From Candidatus Cloacimonadota bacterium (lineage in GTDB: Bacteria > Cloacimonadota > Cloacimonadia > Cloacimonadales > TCS61): 33,889 nt of DNA. Positions 2,009 to 12,569 of the stretch are shown here, piece after piece. The position numbers and the translations under genes are program-made. Position 1 is the stretch's first letter. Every line of letters starts with the position of its first letter. The stretch spans positions 1 through 33,889 of the forward strand of contig JAUXFF010000008.1 in NCBI GenBank assembly GCA_030620155.1, given 5' to 3'. Below the pieces are notes generated by a model. It had not been told where the DNA came from and searched no databases. It saw only the letters and a program-made list of their open reading frames with translations.

Positions 2009-2476
2009 CTATTCTACTTTTTCCCAGTATTGTGTTCTTCCTAATAATGAGAGCCCTAAGAATCCTCTGATTTTTAGTTTATTTCCGTTTTCAATTACTT
2101 CGAGTTTACAACCATAAATTTTTCCATTCTCAGGGTCTAATATTTTTCCACCTGACCATTTATCATTTTTTTTCTTCAAATTCCACAATATGGTCATTCC
2201 GATGATCTGTTCATCCTTTCTTTCTCCTTTACATTCATCACAAAGGGGATTTTGATCTTCATCAGGTGAAAGAAATAGACTATCTATTTTCCCTGTTAAT
2301 TTTCCATCTTCTACTATGATTTCTACAAGAGACTTTTCATCTCTTGTTTGATCATCAAATGTTTTCCACAATCCAATCGGTGGCCCATCGTAAGAGTAAA
2401 CTTCTATCCATAAGAGAAGAAAAAGAGAAACAAATATAATTAGCTTTAAAAACGTATTACATTTGCTCAAAGTCAT
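2009..2476 (-). CDS. Secreted DUF2147 family protein
   Basis: This 155-residue protein has an N-terminal hydrophobic segment (about residues 10-28) that looks like a signal peptide, so the mature domain should be periplasmic. The body shows the DUF2147 pattern in order: GLWKTFDDQT near residue 36, a CDEC pair around residue 79, IIGMTILW, GGKILDPENGKIY, and the closing RGFLGLSLLGRTQYW. The function of the family is not established; it is predicted to be a small beta-rich exported protein. The start overlaps the end of the preceding thioredoxin-like gene by 20 bases, which implies translational coupling. It is the last gene of the redox operon and a terminator follows at once. The family call is confident, the role unknown. 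Confidence 0.8.
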   Translation of the reverse strand: MTLSKCNTFLKLIIFVSLFLLLWIEVYSYDGPPIGLWKTFDDQTRDEKSLVEIIVEDGKLTGKIDSLFLSPDEDQNPLCDECKGERKDEQIIGMTILWNLKKKNDKWSGGKILDPENGKIYGCKLEVIENGNKLKIRGFLGLSLLGRTQYWEKVE

Positions 2477-2945
2477 AATTTGAGATATATTTTTTTAAAT
2501 GATTAACATAATTAACAGCACCACCGGGTTGATAACCGGTACGGGCTACAACATTATTATTTTTGTCTAATAAGAGGATTGTTGGAAAGCCTTTGATCCC
2601 AAATCTCTGCATTATGTTATAATTATATAATTTTGTTTCATAAGGTTGAGGAGTATTGTTTGGAAAATCCAGTTCTAAGAGTATAAGATTATTGTTAGCG
2701 TATTCAATAAATTCATTATGGGAAAAGACTTCTTTTTTTAATTTTTTACACCATCCACACCAGTCCGAGCCAGTGAAATTTATTAAAATTACTTTACCAT
2801 TTGATTGTGCAATATCAAAAGCATCCTCTAAATTTATTAACCAGATTAATTGATTTCCTTTATCGCGAACTTCCTTATTCCCAGATGAAAAAACAGAACC
2901 AAACAACAACAACTGAATTATCAAAATAGCAGCTATTTTTTTCAT
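2457..2945 (-). CDS. Exported thioredoxin-fold protein
   Basis: This 162-residue protein has an N-terminal signal peptide (MKK followed by a hydrophobic run to about residue 20, no lipobox Cys) and a thioredoxin fold. The redox motif WCGWCKK has its cysteines at positions 63 and 66, and the cis-proline is in GFPT (Pro121). The WCGWC motif and the FTGSDWC lead-in resemble DUF255/thioredoxin_7-type or DsbD-gamma-like proteins more than housekeeping thioredoxin. It probably reduces or oxidises disulfides in the periplasm. It starts three bases after the OsmC stop and overlaps the DUF2147 gene, so it belongs to the same transcript. Its substrate cannot be read from the sequence. Confidence 0.85.
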   Translation of the reverse strand: MKKIAAILIIQLLLFGSVFSSGNKEVRDKGNQLIWLINLEDAFDIAQSNGKVILINFTGSDWCGWCKKLKKEVFSHNEFIEYANNNLILLELDFPNNTPQPYETKLYNYNIMQRFGIKGFPTILLLDKNNNVVARTGYQPGGAVNYVNHLKKYISNYDFEQM

Positions 2946-2948
2946 TTA

Positions 2949-3368
2949 TTAATTTTCATTATTTACTGTAATTTTTGTATACAAATTCGCTGATTTTTTT
3001 AACATAATTGAAACACCGCAATATCTAGTTTCTGATAATTCAACAGCTCTTTTTAACTTTTCTAGAGGTAAATTCTTTCCGGTAAAAAGATATTCAATAT
3101 TAATTGTGTGATAGATTTTGGGATGTTCATCAGTCAACTCTCCGCTGACATTTATCTGTAGGTTAAAATCTGTAATCTTCATTTTTTTCAGGATTGAGAC
3201 AACATCCATTCCTGTACAGCCACCTAAGCTACTTAAAAGTAACCCCTTTGGACGGCAGCCTTTATTTTTACCTCCAAATTTCTTTTCCGCATCTATGAAA
3301 AAATGAAAATCGTCAAGTTCAACATCAAAAGCCATGTCTCCCGACCATTTTATTGAGGTCATACTCAT
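2949..3368 (-). CDS. OsmC/Ohr-family protein (YhfA-like)
   Basis: OsmC-family proteins act on peroxides or other small electrophiles through two reactive cysteines. Both are present here: Cys51 in LGGCTGMDV and Cys117 in ETRYCGVS (numbering from the ATG at 3368). The CxGMDVVSILKK helix is typical of the YhfA branch. The open frame extends 21 codons further upstream, but that part overlaps marR. The ATG at 3368 forms an ATGA overlap with the marR stop, so I place the start there; a second ATG at 3362 is an alternative. It sits between the MarR regulator and an exported thioredoxin-like protein, which supports a thiol or peroxide stress role. The exact substrate is unknown. Confidence 0.88.
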   Translation of the reverse strand: MSMTSIKWSGDMAFDVELDDFHFFIDAEKKFGGKNKGCRPKGLLLSSLGGCTGMDVVSILKKMKITDFNLQINVSGELTDEHPKIYHTINIEYLFTGKNLPLEKLKRAVELSETRYCGVSIMLKKSANLYTKITVNNEN

Positions 3369-3823
3369 CGTAATTTGTCTTCTTTTTCCTTTAATGCTGC
3401 ACGATAAGCTTCTATATAAACAAGCATACATTCATAAATATCGTTAGCTTTTCCTTCAGGTAAACGGCTGATTAGATCATTCTGGATATTCATGAAATCT
3501 AGAATAGTCTGCTGATTTGCTTTTTTTCCTTTTTCTGTGATTTCTGCAAGCCAACTTCTTCTGTCTTTCTTGGATGGAAAACGTTTTACAAGTTTTTTTC
3601 TAACAAGTGTATCAATGATTCTTGTTATTCTGCTGTGAGAAACTTTCATTTCAATTGATAGATCATTCATGCAAACAGCCTTGTCTATTGTATTAAGATA
3701 ATTGAGAAGATCACATTCCATTCTTCCCAGGCTTAAGCATTTTCTTCTAATTAATTCCTTTTTTGAGCATAGATTATAAAGCTCTTTACTTAAGTTCGCG
3801 TACTTTGCAACAATTTTTTCCAT
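3365..3823 (-). CDS. MarR-family transcriptional regulator
   Basis: A 152-residue winged-helix regulator. The DNA-binding region runs from about residue 35 to 100, with recognition helix segment MKVSHSRITRIIDTLV and wing KRFPSKKDRRSWLAEIT, and long N- and C-terminal dimerisation helices. Several cysteines lie in the N-terminal half, so redox sensing as in OhrR is possible but not shown. The start has a clear ribosome-binding site (AGGAG, about 8 bases before the ATG). Translation is coupled to the OsmC gene by an ATGA overlap. An imperfect palindrome at 4025-4038 in the operon leader is a candidate binding site, suggesting autoregulation. The ligand is unknown. Confidence 0.9.
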   Translation of the reverse strand: MEKIVAKYANLSKELYNLCSKKELIRRKCLSLGRMECDLLNYLNTIDKAVCMNDLSIEMKVSHSRITRIIDTLVRKKLVKRFPSKKDRRSWLAEITEKGKKANQQTILDFMNIQNDLISRLPEGKANDIYECMLVYIEAYRAALKEKEDKLR

Positions 3824-4142: not shown

Positions 4143-5129
4143 TTATTTTATTTCACTAACTAGTTTTGTTACAACATCTCTGGATTTTAATCCTTCAGCT
4201 TCAGCAGCGAAAGAAATTAATACACGATGTTGTAACACAATACTGGCGATACTTTCTACATCCTCTATTGAAGGAGTGAGCCGATTATGAAGAGCAGCTC
4301 TGGTTTTTGCAGCCAAAATCAGATATTGTGAAGCTCTTGGTCCAGCTCCCCAATTGACCCATTTCTTTATAAAATCAGGTGCTTCTTTGTAAACTGGTCT
4401 TGTCGACCTGGCTAATTTTACTGCAAAATCTAAAACATGTTCACTGACAGGAATTTGTAAAACAGCCTTTTGAATTTCAATTATTTCTTTTGCTGTTAAT
4501 ATTGCATCGATTACTGTTGATTGTGAAGTTGTAGTTTGTTTTACAATTTCTTTTTCCTCTTCATAATTGGGATAATCGATATAGATATTAAACATAAATC
4601 TATCCAACTGCGCCTCTGGAAGAGGATATGTACCTTCTTGTTCAATTGGGTTTTGTGTGGCAAAAACCAGAAATGGTTGATCCAGTTCAAATGTTTTATT
4701 CCCTGAAGTAACTTGATATTCCTGCATAGCTTGTAAAAGGGCAGATTGTGTTTTCGGTGGTGTCCTGTTAATTTCATCAGCTAAAATAATATTAGCGAAA
4801 ATAGGACCTTTTAAATATTCAAAATATCTCTTACCATCAGATTTATTTTCTGCTAAAATATCTGTACCTGTGATATCAGACGGCATTAAATCGGGGGTAA
4901 ATTGTATTCTGCTGAATTTCATATTCAATACCTTAGCCATAGTCGAAATCAGTAATGTTTTAGCAAGTCCGGGAACTCCTTCAAGAAGACAATGACCATT
5001 GGCAAAAAGAGCTATAAGAAATTCCTCAATAACCTTTTCCTGTCCTACTATTACTTTTCCAATTTCTTTTAAAATTTTCTCTTTAGCTTCAGTTAATTCT
5101 TCTAAAACAACAATATTTTCTTTAACCAT
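4143..5129 (-). CDS. MoxR-family AAA+ ATPase
   Basis: MoxR ATPases are AAA+ chaperone-like proteins that usually activate von Willebrand factor A-domain partners. This 328-residue protein has Walker A GVPGLAKT (residues 51-58), Walker B IILADE (about 114-119) followed by the MoxR signature NRTPPKTQSALLQAMQE, sensor segment FATQNP, and arginine-finger region PEAQLDRFMF. Length and motif order match the family. The ATG has a ribosome-binding site (AGGGG about 6 bases upstream). The usual partners, a DUF58 protein and VWA-domain membrane proteins, are not next to it: the flanking genes are the redox operon and the lipid operon, both on the same strand but separated by 135 and 397 bases. It therefore seems to be a lone gene with partners elsewhere. 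Confidence 0.93.
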   Translation of the reverse strand: MVKENIVVLEELTEAKEKILKEIGKVIVGQEKVIEEFLIALFANGHCLLEGVPGLAKTLLISTMAKVLNMKFSRIQFTPDLMPSDITGTDILAENKSDGKRYFEYLKGPIFANIILADEINRTPPKTQSALLQAMQEYQVTSGNKTFELDQPFLVFATQNPIEQEGTYPLPEAQLDRFMFNIYIDYPNYEEEKEIVKQTTTSQSTVIDAILTAKEIIEIQKAVLQIPVSEHVLDFAVKLARSTRPVYKEAPDFIKKWVNWGAGPRASQYLILAAKTRAALHNRLTPSIEDVESIASIVLQHRVLISFAAEAEGLKSRDVVTKLVSEIK

Positions 5130-5526
5130 ATTTTCCCCTATAGTAAATTTTTATAAGATATATTATTCATTCAATCCTAATAAAAAAAGGATTGGGGTTC
5201 AATCCCTCAAAATTTGGATTATTTGTCAAAGGTTACTTTATTAAAACACATGTTTTCATAAAAAATGTTTGTCTGTTCTTAATTGTAATATGTAAATTCA
5301 AGGTAATTACATTCTATTACAGATTTAATAATTTACGATATAATTATAATTGGACCTTGTAGGAACTGAACAACAGTCTGGTAATCACATTTTAAAAAAC
5401 TATAAAAATAGCATATTGAAACCAGTTTTTGGGGAACAAATTAGCTTCAATTGATTTAATAAAGAAAATAAAATCATTCTATCCTAGATGTTTATCAATA
5501 ATGGTATTTCAAAATATTTAGAAGTT
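5130..5526. other. Long spacer between moxR and the lipid operon
   Basis: This 397-base AT-rich gap has no credible open reading frame on either strand. It holds the hairpin structure at 5172-5205 and, on the minus strand near 5224, a TTGACA-like hexamer that may serve moxR. I see no clear T-tailed terminator for the lipid operon just after 5527. Confidence 0.5.
5172..5205 (-). terminator. Terminator or attenuator in the moxR leader
   Basis: On the minus strand GGATTG and CAATCC form a 6-bp hairpin with a 5-nt loop, followed directly by seven T, the shape of an intrinsic terminator. A second GGATTG (5172-5177) lies just beyond the T-tract and could compete for the same CAATCC arm. It is 43 bases before the moxR start, so it may end read-through from the lipid operon or attenuate moxR. 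Confidence 0.5.
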
Positions 5527-6516
5527 TTATTTTTTTAATTTCAAAATATCTGTAAATCTGATTTTTAAAGCAAATAAAGAAAACATACCAACAAAAAATA
5601 TAAGTACTGTTGTCAATAAATGAGAAAAAGTCACAGCAGCACTTGTCAGATTTTCATTTACACCGAGTGCGAATGAAAAAATCAGAACCCACATGAATTG
5701 ATTGGATCCGATCTGAGCAGGTGGAGTTGGTAGTATATAAGTAAGGTTCATTAAGGTATAACCGAAAAGAATTTTAAAATAGCTTATTTGAGCTCCAAAA
5801 GCTTTAAATAGTACCCATATATAAATTGCTTCAGAAAAAACAGCTAAAAGAGTGATCAATGTTGCCAGGATAGTTTCAGGGAATCTGTTCTTCATAATGG
5901 TCATACCGTTTACGAAATTCAGTATGAAACCACTTAATTTTTCCCTGAATTTTACAGGGAATATTTTTAAAAAGAAGTTCAGGATATTCACTGCTTTCTC
6001 TTTATGGTTAGTAGAAAAGAACAGAAACCCAAGAAATAACATAAAAATAAGGAATAATAATAGAATAACAGCGTATAAATAGTAGTTACTTCTAATTGAT
6101 ATCAGGGGGATAAGTACAAGAATTATGACTATGGGGAACAAGTCAGCAAGTTTATCTATAAAAATGGAAGGTAGGCTTTGTGAAATGGGAATTTTGTGCT
6201 TGTTTTTCAGAATTATTGATTTTGCTAACTCTCCAGCCCTGACAGGAATAAGGTAATTAATAACTAAACCGGTCATGAATATAGAATAACTTTCTATTAC
6301 TTTCATTTCATAGATAGGTTTGAGGATTATTTTCCAGCGAAGACTTCTAAGGAAATAGGCCAGAAGATAAAAAACAGAAAACACAAGAACCAGCTTTAAA
6401 TTGAAATTTTTTAAATAATTGATAAATTCTTGCCAATCTATTATTTTGAGCCAGATTATAAGAAAAATAATTCCAAGGAATATACTGAGAATTAAATTTA
6501 ATTTTTTATTTTTCAT
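5527..6516 (-). CDS. Integral membrane protein, LPG-synthase TM / flippase-like family
   Basis: The product (329 residues from the ATG at 6516) is a polytopic inner-membrane protein with about eight hydrophobic segments and belongs to the lysylphosphatidylglycerol synthase TM family (AglD/MprF N-terminal type). Family marks are RSLRWKIIL near residue 60, NYLIPVRAGELAKSI near residue 90, and PTPPAQIGSNQF in the C-terminal third. Members move or help move lipid-linked substrates. A TTG start at 6534 is possible, but the ATG at 6516 has an AAGGG site six bases upstream and overlaps the methyltransferase end by only 11 bases. It is the last gene of the nine-gene lipid operon, so transport of that operon's product is a reasonable guess. 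Substrate is not determinable here. Confidence 0.85.
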   Translation of the reverse strand: MKNKKLNLILSIFLGIIFLIIWLKIIDWQEFINYLKNFNLKLVLVFSVFYLLAYFLRSLRWKIILKPIYEMKVIESYSIFMTGLVINYLIPVRAGELAKSIILKNKHKIPISQSLPSIFIDKLADLFPIVIILVLIPLISIRSNYYLYAVILLLFLIFMLFLGFLFFSTNHKEKAVNILNFFLKIFPVKFREKLSGFILNFVNGMTIMKNRFPETILATLITLLAVFSEAIYIWVLFKAFGAQISYFKILFGYTLMNLTYILPTPPAQIGSNQFMWVLIFSFALGVNENLTSAAVTFSHLLTTVLIFFVGMFSLFALKIRFTDILKLKK

Positions 6517-7363
6517 ATTTCCCTTCAGGAACAAAAATAAAAAATTTATGATGTGCCCAGAAATATTTCATGTAAGAGGGTAAAATTTTCTCAAGCCACA
6601 TATATTTCAACATTTTTTCATCAAAATGTATATCTCTTTCGGAATAATAATCTAAAACAGAAATAAAATGTGTATTTTGTCGAGAAGAACCGGGAATAAG
6701 AAATTTCAGACCGAACATTTTAAAGAATTCTTCTTTGCTCATACCGATATCAGGCCAGGGTGGGCAATCAAAAAAACCTTTATCGAGCAACCTCCAACTG
6801 TTTTCTCCCATCTTTCCTATGAAATATTTAGGGATTATAAAATTTTCTCTTAAAAGGTCTTTCAATTTCAATTTGGAAAGATATTTCTGTGAAAGGTAAC
6901 CCAATCCACTGCGATTCGGCACACAGAACATGATTACTTTTCGGATTACTCTTGTAAGTTCTTTCAAAAAAAGATCCAAATCTTCAAGAAACCAGAGGGA
7001 AGAATAGTTCCATGCAAAATCAATTTCCTTGTCAGAAAATGGAAGATGTTCAAGTTTCTCTTGATAAATTATGTTGGCTTTCAGATTCATTTCTTTCCAA
7101 ACTGATTTTATAAGATTAACTCTTATCCTGTGATTGTCGATTACATGAACATCCAGATTCTGTTTAGCCAACCACATTGAATTAATCCCAGAAATTCCAG
7201 TGAAACCAAAAGAAGGAACTTCAACACAGTTTTGAATACTGAAATCTTTAACCAATTCAGCAAGTTTCAGATTTATAACTATTCTTTCGTAACTGGAACC
7301 CAGTCCTTCATTCCGGTCTTCCATGAAGTATCTTTTCCAAGTCTCTATAATTGGTATAGCCAT
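6506..7363 (-). CDS. SAM-dependent methyltransferase, class I (divergent)
   Basis: This 285-residue protein has a Rossmann-type layout of a type-11 methyltransferase: motif I region CVEVPSFGFTGISG (about residues 46-59), an acidic residue after the second strand in VHVIDNHRIRVNLIK, LPFSDKEIDFAWNYSSLWFLEDLDLFLKE as motif II/III, and VIMFCVPNRSGLGY. Motif I is loosened compared with the usual E/DxGxGxG, so cofactor binding is likely but not certain. The C-terminal 120 residues are rich in aromatic and basic residues and match no family I can name. It starts six bases after the preceding SDR and overlaps the flippase-like gene. From the operon it may methylate a lipid or a polar head group; that is inference. 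Confidence 0.75.
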   Translation of the reverse strand: MAIPIIETWKRYFMEDRNEGLGSSYERIVINLKLAELVKDFSIQNCVEVPSFGFTGISGINSMWLAKQNLDVHVIDNHRIRVNLIKSVWKEMNLKANIIYQEKLEHLPFSDKEIDFAWNYSSLWFLEDLDLFLKELTRVIRKVIMFCVPNRSGLGYLSQKYLSKLKLKDLLRENFIIPKYFIGKMGENSWRLLDKGFFDCPPWPDIGMSKEEFFKMFGLKFLIPGSSRQNTHFISVLDYYSERDIHFDEKMLKYMWLEKILPSYMKYFWAHHKFFIFVPEGKYEK

Positions 7364-7369
7364 AATATA

Positions 7370-8374
7370 TCAAATCAGATTATTTTCTCTGAACCATTTA
7401 ATAACTTTTGTAGCACCTTGTTTCAGGTCTGTTTCCGGATGATAACCGATAGCCTTATCAAGATCCTGATGAATGTTACTGAATTTGCGATCAATACTCA
7501 AGTCTTTAATTCTTCTTCTGTTTAATGGAGGAGATTTATTAATTATTTTGCATAGTATCTCAACAGGGGTAATCAAAAATTGTCCAAACCAGACCGGGAT
7601 TTTAAGAGAGCCACCTTTTCTTCCAAGGATTTCTGAAATCGTTTTTACAAAATCATTGATAGTGAATTTCTCATTATTAGTACAAATAAATGTTCCGTTA
7701 ACCTTAGATCCCATAAATCGAAGGCAAATCATTAGAAGATCATCAAGATAGATTAGAGGGGACATTATATTGTTCCCGTTACCGAAAATTGGGAAAAGCC
7801 CTTTCTTGATCAATCTTACAGAACCAAGAAAATCAGAGCGTTTATCACCAATACCGTAAATCAAGCTGGGTCGTAAAATTACAACTGAGATATTATGGTT
7901 GGAAGAAATTTCATTCAGTTTTATTTCACTTTGTTTTTTTGATTCTCCATATAATGTATCAGGATTTAGAGGTGAATAATTCGTAACAGTTTTTTCTCTC
8001 TGAAAGCCCATACAGGCCAAACTGCTGAAATAAATGAATTTTTTCAAATTTGGATTTTTCTCTTTCACAGCAAGGTAGATATTACAAGTTGCATCTACAT
8101 TTGTATCAATCATTTTATTCATTGCTCGTTGAGAAACTGCAGAAAAATCTACATGGGCTGCTAAATGAAATACAATATCGAGATTATTGGGAATTATCTT
8201 AAGGCTTTCTTTTTGTGTTAAATCTGCTTCCAATAGAGATACCGGTAAAGTTTTTAAATATTTAACATTACTAGATTTTCGTATAATACAAATAACATTA
8301 TGGTTTTCGGTCACAAGACGTTGGACCAAAGCGCTTCCGATGAAGCCGGTTGCACCAGTTACCAGAATATTCAT
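7370..8374 (-). CDS. Extended SDR, NAD(P)-dependent epimerase/dehydratase
   Basis: An extended short-chain dehydrogenase of about 334 residues. The N-terminal MNILVTGATGFIGSAL carries the intact TGxxGxxG nucleotide-binding motif. FHLAAHVDFS, FSSLACMG (catalytic Ser) and YGESK (catalytic Tyr142 and Lys146) follow in standard order, then the LRPSLIYG motif. A GTG at 8380 is an alternative start, but the ATG at 8374 is better spaced from AAGGTG. Such enzymes oxidise, reduce or epimerise nucleotide sugars or, in some branches, isoprenoid and sterol alcohols. It follows the other SDR by nine bases and precedes the methyltransferase. Its substrate cannot be assigned; sugar or prenyl lipid is equally possible from context. 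Confidence 0.88.
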   Translation of the reverse strand: MNILVTGATGFIGSALVQRLVTENHNVICIIRKSSNVKYLKTLPVSLLEADLTQKESLKIIPNNLDIVFHLAAHVDFSAVSQRAMNKMIDTNVDATCNIYLAVKEKNPNLKKFIYFSSLACMGFQREKTVTNYSPLNPDTLYGESKKQSEIKLNEISSNHNISVVILRPSLIYGIGDKRSDFLGSVRLIKKGLFPIFGNGNNIMSPLIYLDDLLMICLRFMGSKVNGTFICTNNEKFTINDFVKTISEILGRKGGSLKIPVWFGQFLITPVEILCKIINKSPPLNRRRIKDLSIDRKFSNIHQDLDKAIGYHPETDLKQGATKVIKWFRENNLI

Positions 8375-8383
8375 TTCCACACC

Positions 8384-9358
8384 TTATTTTTTAAGAGATT
8401 CAAGACAATGTTTCCAAATAGTTAAAGTATCAACTTGTTTTGAAGTCAACCGGATCCCTTGAGTTTCTGTAGAAAAATATTTACTATTCATAAGGAAATT
8501 CATTATTTCAATAGATTTATTCAGTTTTAAGAAGTGAGCAAGTTTGTAATAAATTTCCATTTTCTTTCTACCTAAAGTTTTATGAAGAGGGAGGTTCCGA
8601 TTCAAATATATTTGATAAATTAAATCCACAAGTTCTTGTATTTTTACTGGTTGTGGATCAAGAGCATTAATGATAGTACCGGGTTTAATTTCAGAATCTA
8701 TCGCTTTTAATATTGTTTGAATAAAAAGATCAATATGTGTCATTTGAATAAAAACGTCTTCTTTTGTTATAAAGAGAAGGTGTTTTCTAAGGAGTTTTAA
8801 TAAGTCATTAATAATCCCGGGTAAACCATTTCCATACATATAAGATGTTCTGATGATAACAGAGTTAAGTCCTTTCAGTACATAGTTTTGAATCATGACT
8901 TCAGCTCTATTTTTTGTGAGATGATAGAAACTGTCATTTACACGTTCTGATTGTTCATCCAAAGGAAGTTTAATCGGTCTAACTCCAAATACGTCTATTG
9001 TGGAAAAATATATGAATTTAGATTGATATTCCAAAGAATGATTAATGAATTGTTCGGTAGCGTTTATATTAAAATCAAACATTCTCTTTTTACTGAATTT
9101 CCTGGTGGAGTAATCTCGAAGTTCAGAGTTATGTACTATGATATCGAAATGGTTATTACTAAGAAAATTTTTAAGAGATTCTATCTTTGCTAAATCCAGT
9201 TTGATGATTTTTTTATTTTCTTCCAGGTGTTCTTTGTTAAATTCAGGAGTATTGGATCCTATAATAATGGTTAAGTTATATTTTTTTTTAATTATATCAT
9301 TAAATAATCTTAAATCTACCTGATTATTCAGTCCTGTAATTAGAAGATTTTTACTCAT
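8384..9358 (-). CDS. Atypical extended SDR with altered nucleotide-binding loop
   Basis: A 324-residue SDR-fold protein in the same operon as a more canonical paralogue. The first strand is present (NLLITGL) but the glycine-rich loop reads GLNNQVD rather than GxxGxxG. Catalytic-site features are kept: IVHNSELRDYS for the NNAG-like region, YFSTIDVFG with Ser119 or Thr120, YHLTK with Tyr145 and Lys149, and IRTSYMYGNG. Thus the active-site Tyr and Lys are intact while dinucleotide binding may differ. It starts 29 bases after the PHP gene. It could be a catalytic enzyme with unusual cofactor binding or a partner subunit of the second SDR. No substrate is assigned. Confidence 0.8.
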   Translation of the reverse strand: MSKNLLITGLNNQVDLRLFNDIIKKKYNLTIIIGSNTPEFNKEHLEENKKIIKLDLAKIESLKNFLSNNHFDIIVHNSELRDYSTRKFSKKRMFDFNINATEQFINHSLEYQSKFIYFSTIDVFGVRPIKLPLDEQSERVNDSFYHLTKNRAEVMIQNYVLKGLNSVIIRTSYMYGNGLPGIINDLLKLLRKHLLFITKEDVFIQMTHIDLFIQTILKAIDSEIKPGTIINALDPQPVKIQELVDLIYQIYLNRNLPLHKTLGRKKMEIYYKLAHFLKLNKSIEIMNFLMNSKYFSTETQGIRLTSKQVDTLTIWKHCLESLKK

Positions 9359-9387
9359 TTTTATTTTTTCATTAAATTATTGATTTT

Positions 9388-10107
9388 TTAAAAAAGTTGA
9401 ATATTTTTATTTTTTAAGAGTTTATCAGGATTTATGACACATAACAATTTAGCGAAATCTTTCCCCAGATTTTTCTTGATAACTTTATAAGCCAGAGGTA
9501 GTAAATATTCATCATTATTACAATGAGTGTCTGAAGCCAGAAAATGAACATGACCTCGGGAAAGAAGCTTCCAAGCGGTTTTCGATACTCGTTTTCCATA
9601 TAAACCAATCAAGCTGCCTGCATTAATTTGAAAGTAGACATTTCGATAGATTAGATCTTCAGCAAGTGTTGGATTTTGAATGATATCAGGGTAACGTTCA
9701 GGGTGAGCAAGAATAGGTTTATAATTATTTTTAACTAATTTATACAGTATCTCTAAAAGATTTTTCGGGAAACCGCTTAAATTGGTTTCAACCAAAATGT
9801 AATCTGAGTTATTGATATTGAAATTTTCACTCTCTATATCTTCAAAAATATTTTCATCAAGATAAACTTCCGCTCCTTTGTATAATGTGACTGGAATTTT
9901 CTGTTTTTCAACTTCATTTTGTAAATAATTAAATTTTGATTCAATGACATCCGTATGATTATTATAGACATTTCTTATAAAGTGAGGTGTTAAGACAATG
10001 TCTGTAACTCCTGCATTTATCATTTTCCTGATTTCTGTTATGGAAGTTGATAAATTATCAGCACCATCATCACATGCAGGTAAAATATGTGTATGAATAT
10101 CAATCAT
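9388..10107 (-). CDS. PHP-domain phosphatase, CpsB/YwqE-like
   Basis: This 239-residue protein is a polymerase-and-histidinol-phosphatase (PHP) family metal-dependent phosphoesterase of the CpsB/YwqE type. Metal ligands are visible in MIDIHTHILPACDDGAD (His5, His7), LTPHF, GAEVYLD, LAHPERY and SDTHC, in the order expected for the family. CpsB proteins dephosphorylate tyrosine kinases in capsule synthesis, but no such kinase gene or polysaccharide polymerase is nearby. The ATG overlaps the stop of the GGGP synthase gene in an ATGA arrangement, so it is translationally coupled to lipid synthesis. A phosphatase acting on a lipid phosphate in this operon is an open possibility. The family is certain, the substrate is not. 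Confidence 0.88.
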   Translation of the reverse strand: MIDIHTHILPACDDGADNLSTSITEIRKMINAGVTDIVLTPHFIRNVYNNHTDVIESKFNYLQNEVEKQKIPVTLYKGAEVYLDENIFEDIESENFNINNSDYILVETNLSGFPKNLLEILYKLVKNNYKPILAHPERYPDIIQNPTLAEDLIYRNVYFQINAGSLIGLYGKRVSKTAWKLLSRGHVHFLASDTHCNNDEYLLPLAYKVIKKNLGKDFAKLLCVINPDKLLKNKNIQLF

Positions 10108-10853
10108 TTTCGTTTTATATTATGAATTGAGTTTGCAAATTCCCTGATTAGTTTGGAGTCCAGATTTTTTTCAAGGATGTTTCCGGTTACTATAAAATCA
10201 GCACCGGCAGCAGCTTTTTGTGCAGCTATTTTTGGGTTTGTAATCCCTCCACCAAGTATAACAGGCAATGATATGTTTTTTTTAATTTCCCGGATCATAT
10301 CATCTGGAACCGGATATTCAGCACCACTACCGGCATCAAGATAAATAATTTTCATTCCCAGATATTGACTGGCTAAAGCATGCGCAACTGCTATATCATT
10401 TTTTGTTCTGGGAATTGGGAAACTGCTACTCATAAAATTTACAGAAGTATTTTGACCTGAGTCAATAAGCATATATGCGGTTCCAATGGCTTCCAGGTTG
10501 TATTGTTTTATTTGAGGAGCTGCTCGAACTTGTTCGCCTATTAACATTTGAGGATTACGGCTGGAAACCACAGAAAGAAGCAATATTGCATCTGCATATT
10601 TCGATACAAAGTTGAATATTCCTGGAAAAATTATAACAGGGATGTTTACATTTCCTTTGATGACTTTCAAATTAGATTCAAAATTATTTGTCAGCATAAG
10701 ACTACCGCCAACAAGAAGACCATCAGCACCATTTTCTTCACATGTTTTGGCATATTGAACAGCTTGTTTTTCATCAATTTTATCAGGGTCTATCAAGCAT
10801 AAATAATTGGCTCTTTCTTTAGCCATTTTTAAAAGTTTATTGTATGTTTTCAT
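10104..10853 (-). CDS. Geranylgeranylglyceryl phosphate synthase (group II type)
   Basis: GGGP synthase joins a prenyl diphosphate to sn-glycerol-1-phosphate, the first committed step of archaeal ether-lipid formation; it is a cytoplasmic TIM barrel. The 249-residue length fits the group II branch shared by some archaea and FCB bacteria. Visible phosphate and glycerol-binding motifs are CLIDPDK (residues 19-25), GLLVGGS (45-51), SSRNP (97-101), YLDAGSGAEYPVP (171-183), VILGGGITNP (198-207) and the VTGNILEK loop (222-229). The related PcrB (heptaprenylglyceryl phosphate synthase) differs, and the neighbours support C20 chemistry, but chain length cannot be proved from sequence. It overlaps the UbiA gene by 17 bases and the PHP gene by 4, so all three are coupled. 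No G1P dehydrogenase is in view. Confidence 0.93.
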   Translation of the reverse strand: MKTYNKLLKMAKERANYLCLIDPDKIDEKQAVQYAKTCEENGADGLLVGGSLMLTNNFESNLKVIKGNVNIPVIIFPGIFNFVSKYADAILLLSVVSSRNPQMLIGEQVRAAPQIKQYNLEAIGTAYMLIDSGQNTSVNFMSSSFPIPRTKNDIAVAHALASQYLGMKIIYLDAGSGAEYPVPDDMIREIKKNISLPVILGGGITNPKIAAQKAAAGADFIVTGNILEKNLDSKLIREFANSIHNIKRK

Positions 10854-11676
10854 AATTTCCCATCCATAGAATAATTAATAAAATAAGCATGTCAACTTTC
10901 ATGAGAGAGGATATTTTCAAGAATTTTCCTTTATCATTGGAATGATTTATTAGATAAATTATAAATATTATCAACGGTAACGAAACAAATAAATTCATAA
11001 AAATGAATGTATTCGGATATAAAAATCTTAAGTGGAATAGATAAAAAATAAATAGAACAATGACCAGAGAAGGAATAATGGAGACCAGAACTGTTTTTTT
11101 TCTTCCAAAATGAATTGCAAGTGTATGGGCTCCTGATTTAGAATCTCCTTCAATATCTTCAGCATCTTTGATGAATTCACGTATAAGAGTATAGAGAAAT
11201 GCAAAGATTGCAATAAATAAGCTATTTTTAAAGTTATTATTACATAAACCTCCAAAGATAAAAGTAGAGGCTGCTGCATATGAAACTATTAAATTTCCTG
11301 ATAAAAATCTCATTTTATAGAATTTAGCGTAATAAAACAGTGCTAAACTGTTAAAAATCGCAATAAAAACACAATATACATTTTTGGTTAAGAAACTTAT
11401 TATTATTCCAGTTAAAAATAGTGAAACCGAATAAATGTAGGCTGTTTTAGGATTCATTTTTCCTGATGGTAAAACCCGGTTCGGTTTGTTAATTATATCA
11501 ATAGTTAGGTCAAAAAAGTCGTTCATAATATAACCTGCTCCGGTAATTAGAAAAGCAGAGATAGCTGCATATAAGACAGAATAATTAAATAATGAATTTT
11601 TATAAAAAGCTCCAAAAAAAACGCAAATTACTACAAAGAAGCAATTATAAGGACGAAGAATTTTTAAAAAAGACAC
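10837..11676 (-). CDS. UbiA-family prenyltransferase, probable digeranylgeranylglyceryl phosphate synthase
   Basis: A 279-residue integral membrane prenyltransferase with eight to nine hydrophobic helices. The two Asp-rich motifs are NDFFDLTID (residues 52-60, followed by NKPNRVLPSG) and KDAEDIEGD (171-179). This pair, with the PxRxLPSG tail, resembles archaeal DGGGP synthase, which adds a second geranylgeranyl chain to GGGP. The alternatives are heme, quinone or chlorophyll branch UbiA enzymes, but gene order (prenyl synthase, UbiA, GGGP synthase) favours the ether-lipid role. The start is GTG, five bases after the prenyl synthase stop, with only a weak ribosome-binding site, which suggests reinitiation. 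The 3' end overlaps the GGGP synthase gene by 17 bases. Confidence 0.88.
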   Translation of the reverse strand: MSFLKILRPYNCFFVVICVFFGAFYKNSLFNYSVLYAAISAFLITGAGYIMNDFFDLTIDIINKPNRVLPSGKMNPKTAYIYSVSLFLTGIIISFLTKNVYCVFIAIFNSLALFYYAKFYKMRFLSGNLIVSYAAASTFIFGGLCNNNFKNSLFIAIFAFLYTLIREFIKDAEDIEGDSKSGAHTLAIHFGRKKTVLVSIIPSLVIVLFIFYLFHLRFLYPNTFIFMNLFVSLPLIIFIIYLINHSNDKGKFLKISSLMKVDMLILLIILWMGNYENIQ

Positions 11677-11681
11677 AGGTT

Positions 11682-12569
11682 TTAGGGAAGCCTTTCTTTG
11701 ATCATGTTAACAAATTCAATCAGGATATCATTATTTTTCATATTTTTAATAAGATTATATGAATCTCTTAAAAGTTTTTCAGCAGTTTTTTTGGATTTTT
11801 CCAACCCCATAAGAGCAGAATAAGGAGCCTTGTTGTTCCTTGAATCTTCTCCCGGTTCTCTACCTAAGATATCAAAACTACCGACTTCATCAAGAATATC
11901 ATCAACAATTTGATAAGCCAGGCCTAAATTTAAAGCAAAATTACCAAGGGTAATGGTAACATTTTCTTCTGCTTCATAAATAGTACAGGCTAATTCCATA
12001 GATGCCTGAAGCAGAGCGCCGGTTTTTTTTAAATGAATATATCTGAGTGTGTTAAGATTAATTTTTCTTTTTGCTGATAAAATATCTACAGCTTGTCCTC
12101 CTATCATTCCTCGAGTAGAAACGGCTTGCGTTAATATATCAATACATTTTAAAGCAGTTTTTCTATTTTTAATTTCAGTAAGAATTTCAAAAGCCAAAGT
12201 TATCAAGGCATCACCAGCTAAAATGGCGGTTGCATCTCCGAATTTTATATGACAACTGGGTTTACCTCTTCTTTCACGTGAGTTATCTATAATTGGTAAA
12301 TCATCATGTATCAAAGAAGCCGAATGGATCATTTCCAATGAACATGCAGCGGGAAGTAGTCTTTCAAGTCTATTGATATTTTTCCTACCAATCAGCATTT
12401 CGTAAGTTGCAAAAAAAAGGATCGGACGAAGACGTTTTCCTCCATTAAATACAGCATATCTCATGGCTTCATGGAGTTGCTTTGTTTTTATATCTTCAGC
12501 AGATAAGAATTTATCTAAAGCCGTCTCAACCAAATTCTTTCTTGTATTAAAATATTCTTGAACTAACAA
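11682..12569 (-). CDS. Polyprenyl (probable geranylgeranyl) diphosphate synthase
   Basis: A 295-residue trans-isoprenyl diphosphate synthase, soluble and all-helical. It has GGKRLRP (43-49), the first Asp-rich motif DDLPIID (89-95) with RRGKP after it, GGQAVD (157-162), KKTGALL (181-187) and the second Asp-rich motif VDDILDE (222-228). The fifth residue before the first motif is Ala84; farnesyl synthases of this class carry a bulky Tyr there, and a small residue allows a C20 product. The first motif has the long DDx4D spacing of bacterial IspA/CrtE types. Start is TTG at 12569 behind an AAAGGGG site; there is no nearby ATG in frame. It would supply GGPP to the next two enzymes. Product length is inferred. 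Confidence 0.9.
   Translation of the reverse strand: MLVQEYFNTRKNLVETALDKFLSAEDIKTKQLHEAMRYAVFNGGKRLRPILFFATYEMLIGRKNINRLERLLPAACSLEMIHSASLIHDDLPIIDNSRERRGKPSCHIKFGDATAILAGDALITLAFEILTEIKNRKTALKCIDILTQAVSTRGMIGGQAVDILSAKRKINLNTLRYIHLKKTGALLQASMELACTIYEAEENVTITLGNFALNLGLAYQIVDDILDEVGSFDILGREPGEDSRNNKAPYSALMGLEKSKKTAEKLLRDSYNLIKNMKNNDILIEFVNMIKERLP

Follow-up and report, generated by a model that had tools for sequence, protein, structure and literature searches.

What do the genes that lie directly behind the archaeal-type lipid enzymes of a Cloacimonadota bacterium do, and do they depend on the lipid that those enzymes make? The question is raised by a window of 33,889 nt (the whole stretch of DNA that was analyzed) from contig JAUXFF010000008.1 of a metagenome-assembled genome of Candidatus Cloacimonadota bacterium (GCA_030620155.1; TCS61). 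On its - strand, the genes are transcribed in the order Gfo/Idh/MocA oxidoreductase, prenyl synthase, digeranylgeranylglyceryl phosphate (DGGGP) synthase (DGGGPS), geranylgeranylglyceryl phosphate (GGGP) synthase (GGGPS), PHP phosphatase, two short-chain dehydrogenase/reductases (SDR1 and SDR2), methyltransferase (MT), flippase-like protein (FLIP), and MoxR-type ATPase. A preliminary description, made from the sequence alone, had proposed that the block from PHP to FLIP may tailor and export an isoprenoid-glycerol lipid or a lipid-linked sugar. We favor another reading, to which we give a probability of about 0.5, namely that this is an old envelope operon of the Cloacimonadota with two separable parts, the second of which most likely alters a head group, borne by a lipid or lipid-linked and common to the phylum, and then flips it.

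Probable loss of the ether-lipid core genes

We surveyed 107 genomes of the same order and mapped the window proteins on the loci retrieved, as well as on loci of two families (f12 and f13) that belong to other orders of the same class. GGGPS occurs in 50 of the 107 genomes and in none of the 50 genomes of one family (f2). Strong DGGGPS matches were found in exactly the 50 GGGPS-positive genomes and are absent from the other 57, with the UbiA matches of f2 being weak (133 bits at most), and a geranylgeranyl reductase model matched 48 of the 50 GGGPS-positive genomes compared with 7 of the 57 GGGPS-negative ones. In the window genome itself, the reductase match (G000:C97, L135) is incomplete, as it lies at the end of a contig. 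The genes of the block, on the other hand, are present with or without the core: PHP in 49/50 GGGPS-positive and 52/57 GGGPS-negative genomes, SDR1 in 47/50 and 51/57, MT in 47/50 and 48/57, and FLIP in 44/50 and 51/57. In f2 the genes run prenyl synthase-PHP-SDR1-MT-FLIP-MoxR, as though GGGPS and DGGGPS had been excised; the block comes straight after the operon prenyl synthase in 8/8 loci, and the internal order is equally stable (PHP to SDR1 9/9, SDR1 to MT 9/9, MT to FLIP 8/9). The complete PHP copies of f2 and f4 retain their metal ligands and R138, and most of the invariant residues of MT and FLIP are retained in GGGPS-less genomes. The operon prenyl synthases of f2, f4, and f9 lack the third Asp of DDxxxxD, the first Asp-rich motif. 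In GGGPS-less families (L081-L090, L101), this motif-damaged synthase is still a full-length open reading frame (ORF).

The block has thus remained under constraint in genomes that lost the ether-lipid core. Because most GGGPS-negative genomes keep PHP, SDR1, MT, and FLIP, the block is not specific to ether lipids there, and ether lipid cannot be its only substrate. The preliminary description had named, as a result that would speak against it, the occurrence of these genes away from GGGPS in most related genomes, for example in capsule loci. In about half of the genomes they are indeed away from GGGPS, but they are still found behind the prenyl synthase and not in capsule loci. The arrangement with GGGPS is probably the ancestral one, from which f2 would have arisen by loss, as families f12 and f13 of other orders hold either the full seven-gene order or SDR1-MT-FLIP.

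These results make a module dedicated to the ether lipid unlikely. In such a module, PHP would dephosphorylate GGGP or DGGGP, an SDR and MT would modify the glycerol or the chains, and FLIP would export the product. The 57 genomes without GGGPS and DGGGPS mostly keep the block, with its genes adjacent in the loci read, and PHP matches protein-tyrosine phosphatases. Furthermore, phosphatidylglycerol-archaeol (PG-archaeol) has been formed in E. coli by GGGPS and DGGGPS of Cloacimonadota without any gene of the block (PMC7852524). There is nonetheless a precedent in Bacillus, where heptaprenylglyceryl phosphate, the product of the GGGPS homolog PcrB, is dephosphorylated and then acetylated by YvoF (PMC9179154); the operon described here differs in that it has no acetyltransferase and adds a second prenyl transfer by DGGGPS. 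The preservation of the seven-gene order in two orders also speaks for this module, as does the GGGPS-PHP adjacency described below. A related version is quite improbable as well: that PHP, SDR, MT, and FLIP form a head-group and export route for ether lipids, working on dephosphorylated (D)GGGP rather than on cytidine diphosphate (CDP)-archaeol, and that the Cloacimonadaceae-like family f2 switched to another lipid once GGGPS and DGGGPS had been lost.

Conserved gene order across Cloacimonadota

Adjacency in GGGPS-positive loci was counted on contigs long enough to show the neighbor. GGGPS is followed by PHP in 47/48 cases, with a median overlap of 1 bp, PHP by SDR1 in 44/45, SDR1 by MT in 38/41, and MT by FLIP in 35/36. 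The usual order, prenyl synthase-DGGGPS-GGGPS-PHP-SDR1-MT-FLIP, characterizes the majority of GGGPS-positive genomes in the order, and three loci of f12/f13 (L118, L119, and L123) carry all seven genes in the same arrangement. This recurrence in a second order indicates that the linkage is old and not due to chance. A survey of the GGGPS neighborhood, which the preliminary description had suggested as a check for FCB genomes, bears out the co-occurrence within this order, where almost all GGGPS-positive genomes show it. The single Bacteroidia GGGPS locus (L032) has no relative of the block genes. Other f12/f13 loci contain SDR1-MT-FLIP without the rest of the operon, and these three genes stay joined in f13 loci despite changed surroundings and GGGPS (L121, L122, L124, and L126), as well as in two loci where the operon is split (L096 and L097).

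The cohesion of SDR1, MT, and FLIP bears on another explanation of the locus, that it is an old operon whose envelope genes have separate functions and are merely co-transcribed and vertically inherited within one phylum. The surroundings are also syntenic in family f1 (MutS, U32, and Rho upstream; MoxR, MarR, and OsmC downstream), and within the order the adjacency of MoxR is as strong as that of the block genes, both of which would fit mere co-transcription. Even so, we consider it very unlikely, as the three genes remain joined in the f13 and split loci, and as the decay of SDR1 (see below) coincides either with another intact SDR beside MT or with the absence of MT. MoxR itself (4143..5129; PF07726, 210.8 bits) was considered as a member of the block. 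It adjoins FLIP in 33/35 and 8/8 loci of the order, but only in 1/5 loci of other orders, and we therefore set it aside as what is probably a neighbor outside the block.

Some loci carry a DUF362 gene between MT and FLIP (L118:7833-8948, L121:8279-9454, L125:1653-2783, and L053:12937-14055). These genes fall into two distant groups (f13 and f5), and three of the four encode ferredoxin domains. The DUF362 protein might serve the module as a redox partner; a literature search on DUF362 in lipid contexts returned nothing useful.

The SDR pair, methyltransferase-like protein, and flippase-like protein

The preliminary description had listed five families behind GGGPS. That holds for the window, where GGGPS, PHP, both SDRs, MT, and FLIP lie on the - strand as described and have family assignments that profile matches support, but elsewhere there are mostly four, with a single SDR. 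In the relatives, SDR1 is a conserved extended SDR (TGISGFIG and YHFTK) whose TGxxGxxG and YxxxK motifs are intact in nearly all complete copies. The window SDR1 (8384..9358; PF01370, 54.8 bits) is a degenerate ortholog of it on a long branch, in which the glycine motif is replaced by TGLNNQVD while the Tyr and Lys are kept, and it looks catalytically dead. Next to it, SDR2 (7370..8380; PF01370, 123.7 bits) is an extended SDR with both motifs intact in its translation (TGATGFIG and YGESK). Its best NCBIfam model is the hopanoid-associated epimerase HpnA, at 115 bits, which is well under the cut-off of 367.65. An SDR2 between SDR1 and MT was found in only three genomes (the window, L049, and L099).

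Five SDR1 sequences, all on long branches, show decay of the glycine motif: those of the window, L049 (G081), L079 (G060), L090 (G052), and L101 (G061). The SDR1 of L117 was left out of this set, being merely cut at a contig end. Both the window and G081 have SDR2 inserted before MT, G060 and G061 each encode MT next to an intact SDR at another site (L096 and L093, respectively), and G052 has no MT in its genome. Since every decayed SDR1 is thus matched by an intact SDR beside MT or by a genome without MT, we infer that the SDR and MT act together, and in the window the catalytic function once held by SDR1 has probably passed to SDR2. A tree clusters four of the degenerate copies, all of them on very long branches, and joint and separate decay are indistinguishable in it.

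MT (6506..7363) is a divergent class I methyltransferase-like protein. It matches PF08241 with 35.6 bits, the NCBIfam search gave no match, and the Gly-rich motif I is altered to LExPxFGFTG. The family has a signature of its own, with DEGLGSSYER, LExPxFGFTGxSGINS, DCPPWPDIG, and AHH, and 26 invariant columns in our alignment (A1). A second MT subtype with 24-32% identity to the window MT occupies the same position in L043, L045, L051, L061, and L062; its presence even within genus g7 suggests replacement. FLIP (5527..6516) is an integral membrane protein of the LPG_synthase_TM/flippase-like type, well above the cut-offs of both PF03706 (136.4 vs. 33.4 bits) and TIGR00374 (96.9 vs. 43.2 bits), while profile searches with FLIP against solved structures gave no match. 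Based on its relatives, translation is more likely to start at the ATG at 6516 than at a TTG upstream (6534). As for the family, a relation to flippases is known for the LPG_synthase_TM protein of MprF and has been predicted for that of gpgSDF (PMC5898192, PMC12713373).

The PHP phosphatase and a tyrosine kinase encoded elsewhere

PHP (9388..10107; PF19567, 186.9 bits) belongs by family to the phosphatases, as the preliminary description had it, specifically to the CpsB/CapC/YwqE type. Its profile aligns over the full length to YwqE and CpsB, which are its best matches (YwqE 3qy6, E 4e-54), and residues H5, H7, E80, E107, H135, R138, D193, and H195 are invariant in our alignment (A4), so that the metal ligands and catalytic Arg of the CpsB/YwqE fold are in place together with the HPERY motif. 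The window protein has 239 aa compared with about 256-265 in most relatives, the C-terminal tail being missing. It scores 125.1 bits against the Cps4B equivalog model NF041488, for which the cut-off is 400, and is therefore not counted as a Cps4B equivalog. Another difference from CpsB, YwqE, and Php1 is that PHP is encoded beside GGGPS or a prenyl synthase and not beside its kinase.

A Wzc-type bacterial tyrosine kinase (BY-kinase) is nevertheless encoded in 91 of the 107 genomes, at a separate locus (in the window genome on another contig, G000:C131). No phosphatase gene adjoins the kinase in the loci read, and the operon PHP is the sole CpsB-type PHP in nearly every genome. The C-terminal tyrosine cluster of the kinase was present in 3/3 copies read, including the window genome's own. 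These loci (L127:9225-11513, L130:2-1312, and L131:9600-11879), in which the cluster is strong, also have a GHMP kinase gene following downstream, and an SLBB gene precedes the BY-kinase wherever upstream sequence is available. In P. gingivalis, Php1 has been shown to dephosphorylate Ptk1, for which a conserved Arg is required (PMC6759763). Considering the YwqE/CpsB-type match and the kinase elsewhere in the genome, lipid dephosphorylation by PHP, as had been proposed, is doubtful, and a role as the phosphatase of the BY-kinase is at least as likely.

Taken further, the same evidence could mean that the whole locus serves a surface glycan, with PHP acting on the BY-kinase, SDR and MT building a methylated lipid-linked sugar that FLIP flips, and the prenyl and ether-lipid genes supplying isoprenoid or lipid anchors. 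The SDRs would fit this, as they are similar to sugar-nucleotide SDRs and to HpnA. However, a glycosyltransferase, Wzx, and Wzy are all missing from the block, the BY-kinase sits in its separate locus, and LMW-PTP domains, often inside frames of ~370 aa, are also found in most genomes. In addition, PHP is present in a few near-complete genomes (e.g., G008 and G086) in which no BY-kinase is clearly matched. We regard this explanation as possible but rather doubtful.

A proposed two-part envelope operon

In the two-part reading, the prenyl synthase, DGGGPS, and GGGPS would make an unsaturated archaeol-type core, while PHP, SDR, MT, and FLIP would be a phylum-wide module that operates even where the first part has been lost. 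We infer for this module a single pathway in which the SDR would oxidize, reduce, or epimerize a head group or sugar attached either to a membrane lipid or to an isoprenoid carrier, MT would methylate the product, and FLIP would translocate it across the inner membrane. PHP would dephosphorylate the Wzc-type tyrosine kinase or, with lower probability, a lipid.

Several points weigh against this reading. After GGGPS was lost, the genes of f2 may have been put to a new use, in which case ether lipids could still be what the window block acts on; three MT residues that are invariant in GGGPS-positive genomes (S62, W118, and N119) are altered in many f2 copies, and the loss in f2 is read from the f13 gene order and not from a species tree. 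The GGGPS-PHP adjacency persists where DGGGPS has been relocated (L053 and L078), which favors a link between PHP and GGGP. The lack of a glycosyltransferase leaves a sugar substrate unsupported by the gene content of the block. G086 pairs an intact SDR1 with a truncated MT and is an exception to the SDR-MT rule, and the AlphaFold model of MT, built from two rows, has a mean pLDDT (predicted local distance difference test) of 36.

Of the enzymes of the first part, GGGPS (10104..10853) is above the curated cut-offs of TIGR01769 (220.6 vs. 161.55 bits) and NF003198 (280.5 vs. 247 bits). The probable DGGGPS (10837..11676), a UbiA prenyltransferase (PF01040, 123.8 bits), has GGGP geranylgeranyltransferase NF009521 as its best NCBIfam model (196.9 bits, under the cut-off of 296), and the activity is known from a relative's enzyme (PMC7852524). 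The trans-prenyl diphosphate synthase (11682..12569; PF00348, 184.4 bits) is of the geranylgeranyl diphosphate (GGPP) type by motif, with Ala at position -5 of DDLPIID; a second prenyl synthase is present in most genomes surveyed, including at another site in the window genome (G000:C115). The tight coupling noted in the preliminary description is evident throughout, as the GGGPS and PHP genes share 4 bp, PHP and SDR1 are 25-29 bp apart, SDR1 and SDR2 3 bp, and SDR2 and MT 6 bp, and MT and FLIP overlap by 11 bp given the FLIP start at ATG 6516. Between FLIP and MoxR there are 397 bp (5130-5526) without an ORF or an RNA family match, compared with mostly a few bases or an overlap in relatives; no RNA families or tRNAs were found in the window. 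Downstream of MoxR (2009-3823), genes for MarR, OsmC, a thioredoxin-like protein, and DUF2147 form a second conserved group in family f1.

Comparison with known systems and implications

No description of the block was found in the open-licence literature searched, in agreement with the preliminary description. The closest report is that of Villanueva et al. on the GGGPS-DGGGPS pair of Cloacimonadota and other FCB bacteria (PMC7852524), which concerns the same phylum and likewise has GGGPS beside DGGGPS, prenyl synthases, and a geranylgeranyl reductase elsewhere. Its main text does not mention a phosphatase, methyltransferase, flippase, or operon, and the survey presented here shows that the pair is the half that varies in a conserved operon of larger size. 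The gpgSDF and hexSDF operons and MprF (PMC12713373, PMC5898192) also place cytosolic lipid-modifying enzymes beside a PF03706/UPF0104 flippase-like protein, and a modify-then-flip logic is possibly shared with them. Unlike these systems, the block has no glycosyltransferase, deacetylase, or aminoacyl-transferase domain, but has an SDR and a methyltransferase and is linked to isoprenoid genes. As no glycosyltransferase occurs among the Pfam matches of the operon genes, we do not count the block as a member of the gpgSDF/hexSDF group.

The locus is a caution that gene order alone is insufficient to assign function to the neighbors of bacterial ether-lipid genes. PHP and the BY-kinase present a testable kinase-phosphatase pairing. 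Family f2 and the GGGPS-positive families, for their part, provide a natural contrast that separates the ether-lipid core from the envelope module, naming the genes and species pairs for comparison and bearing on the role of archaeal-type lipid enzymes in the Cloacimonadota.

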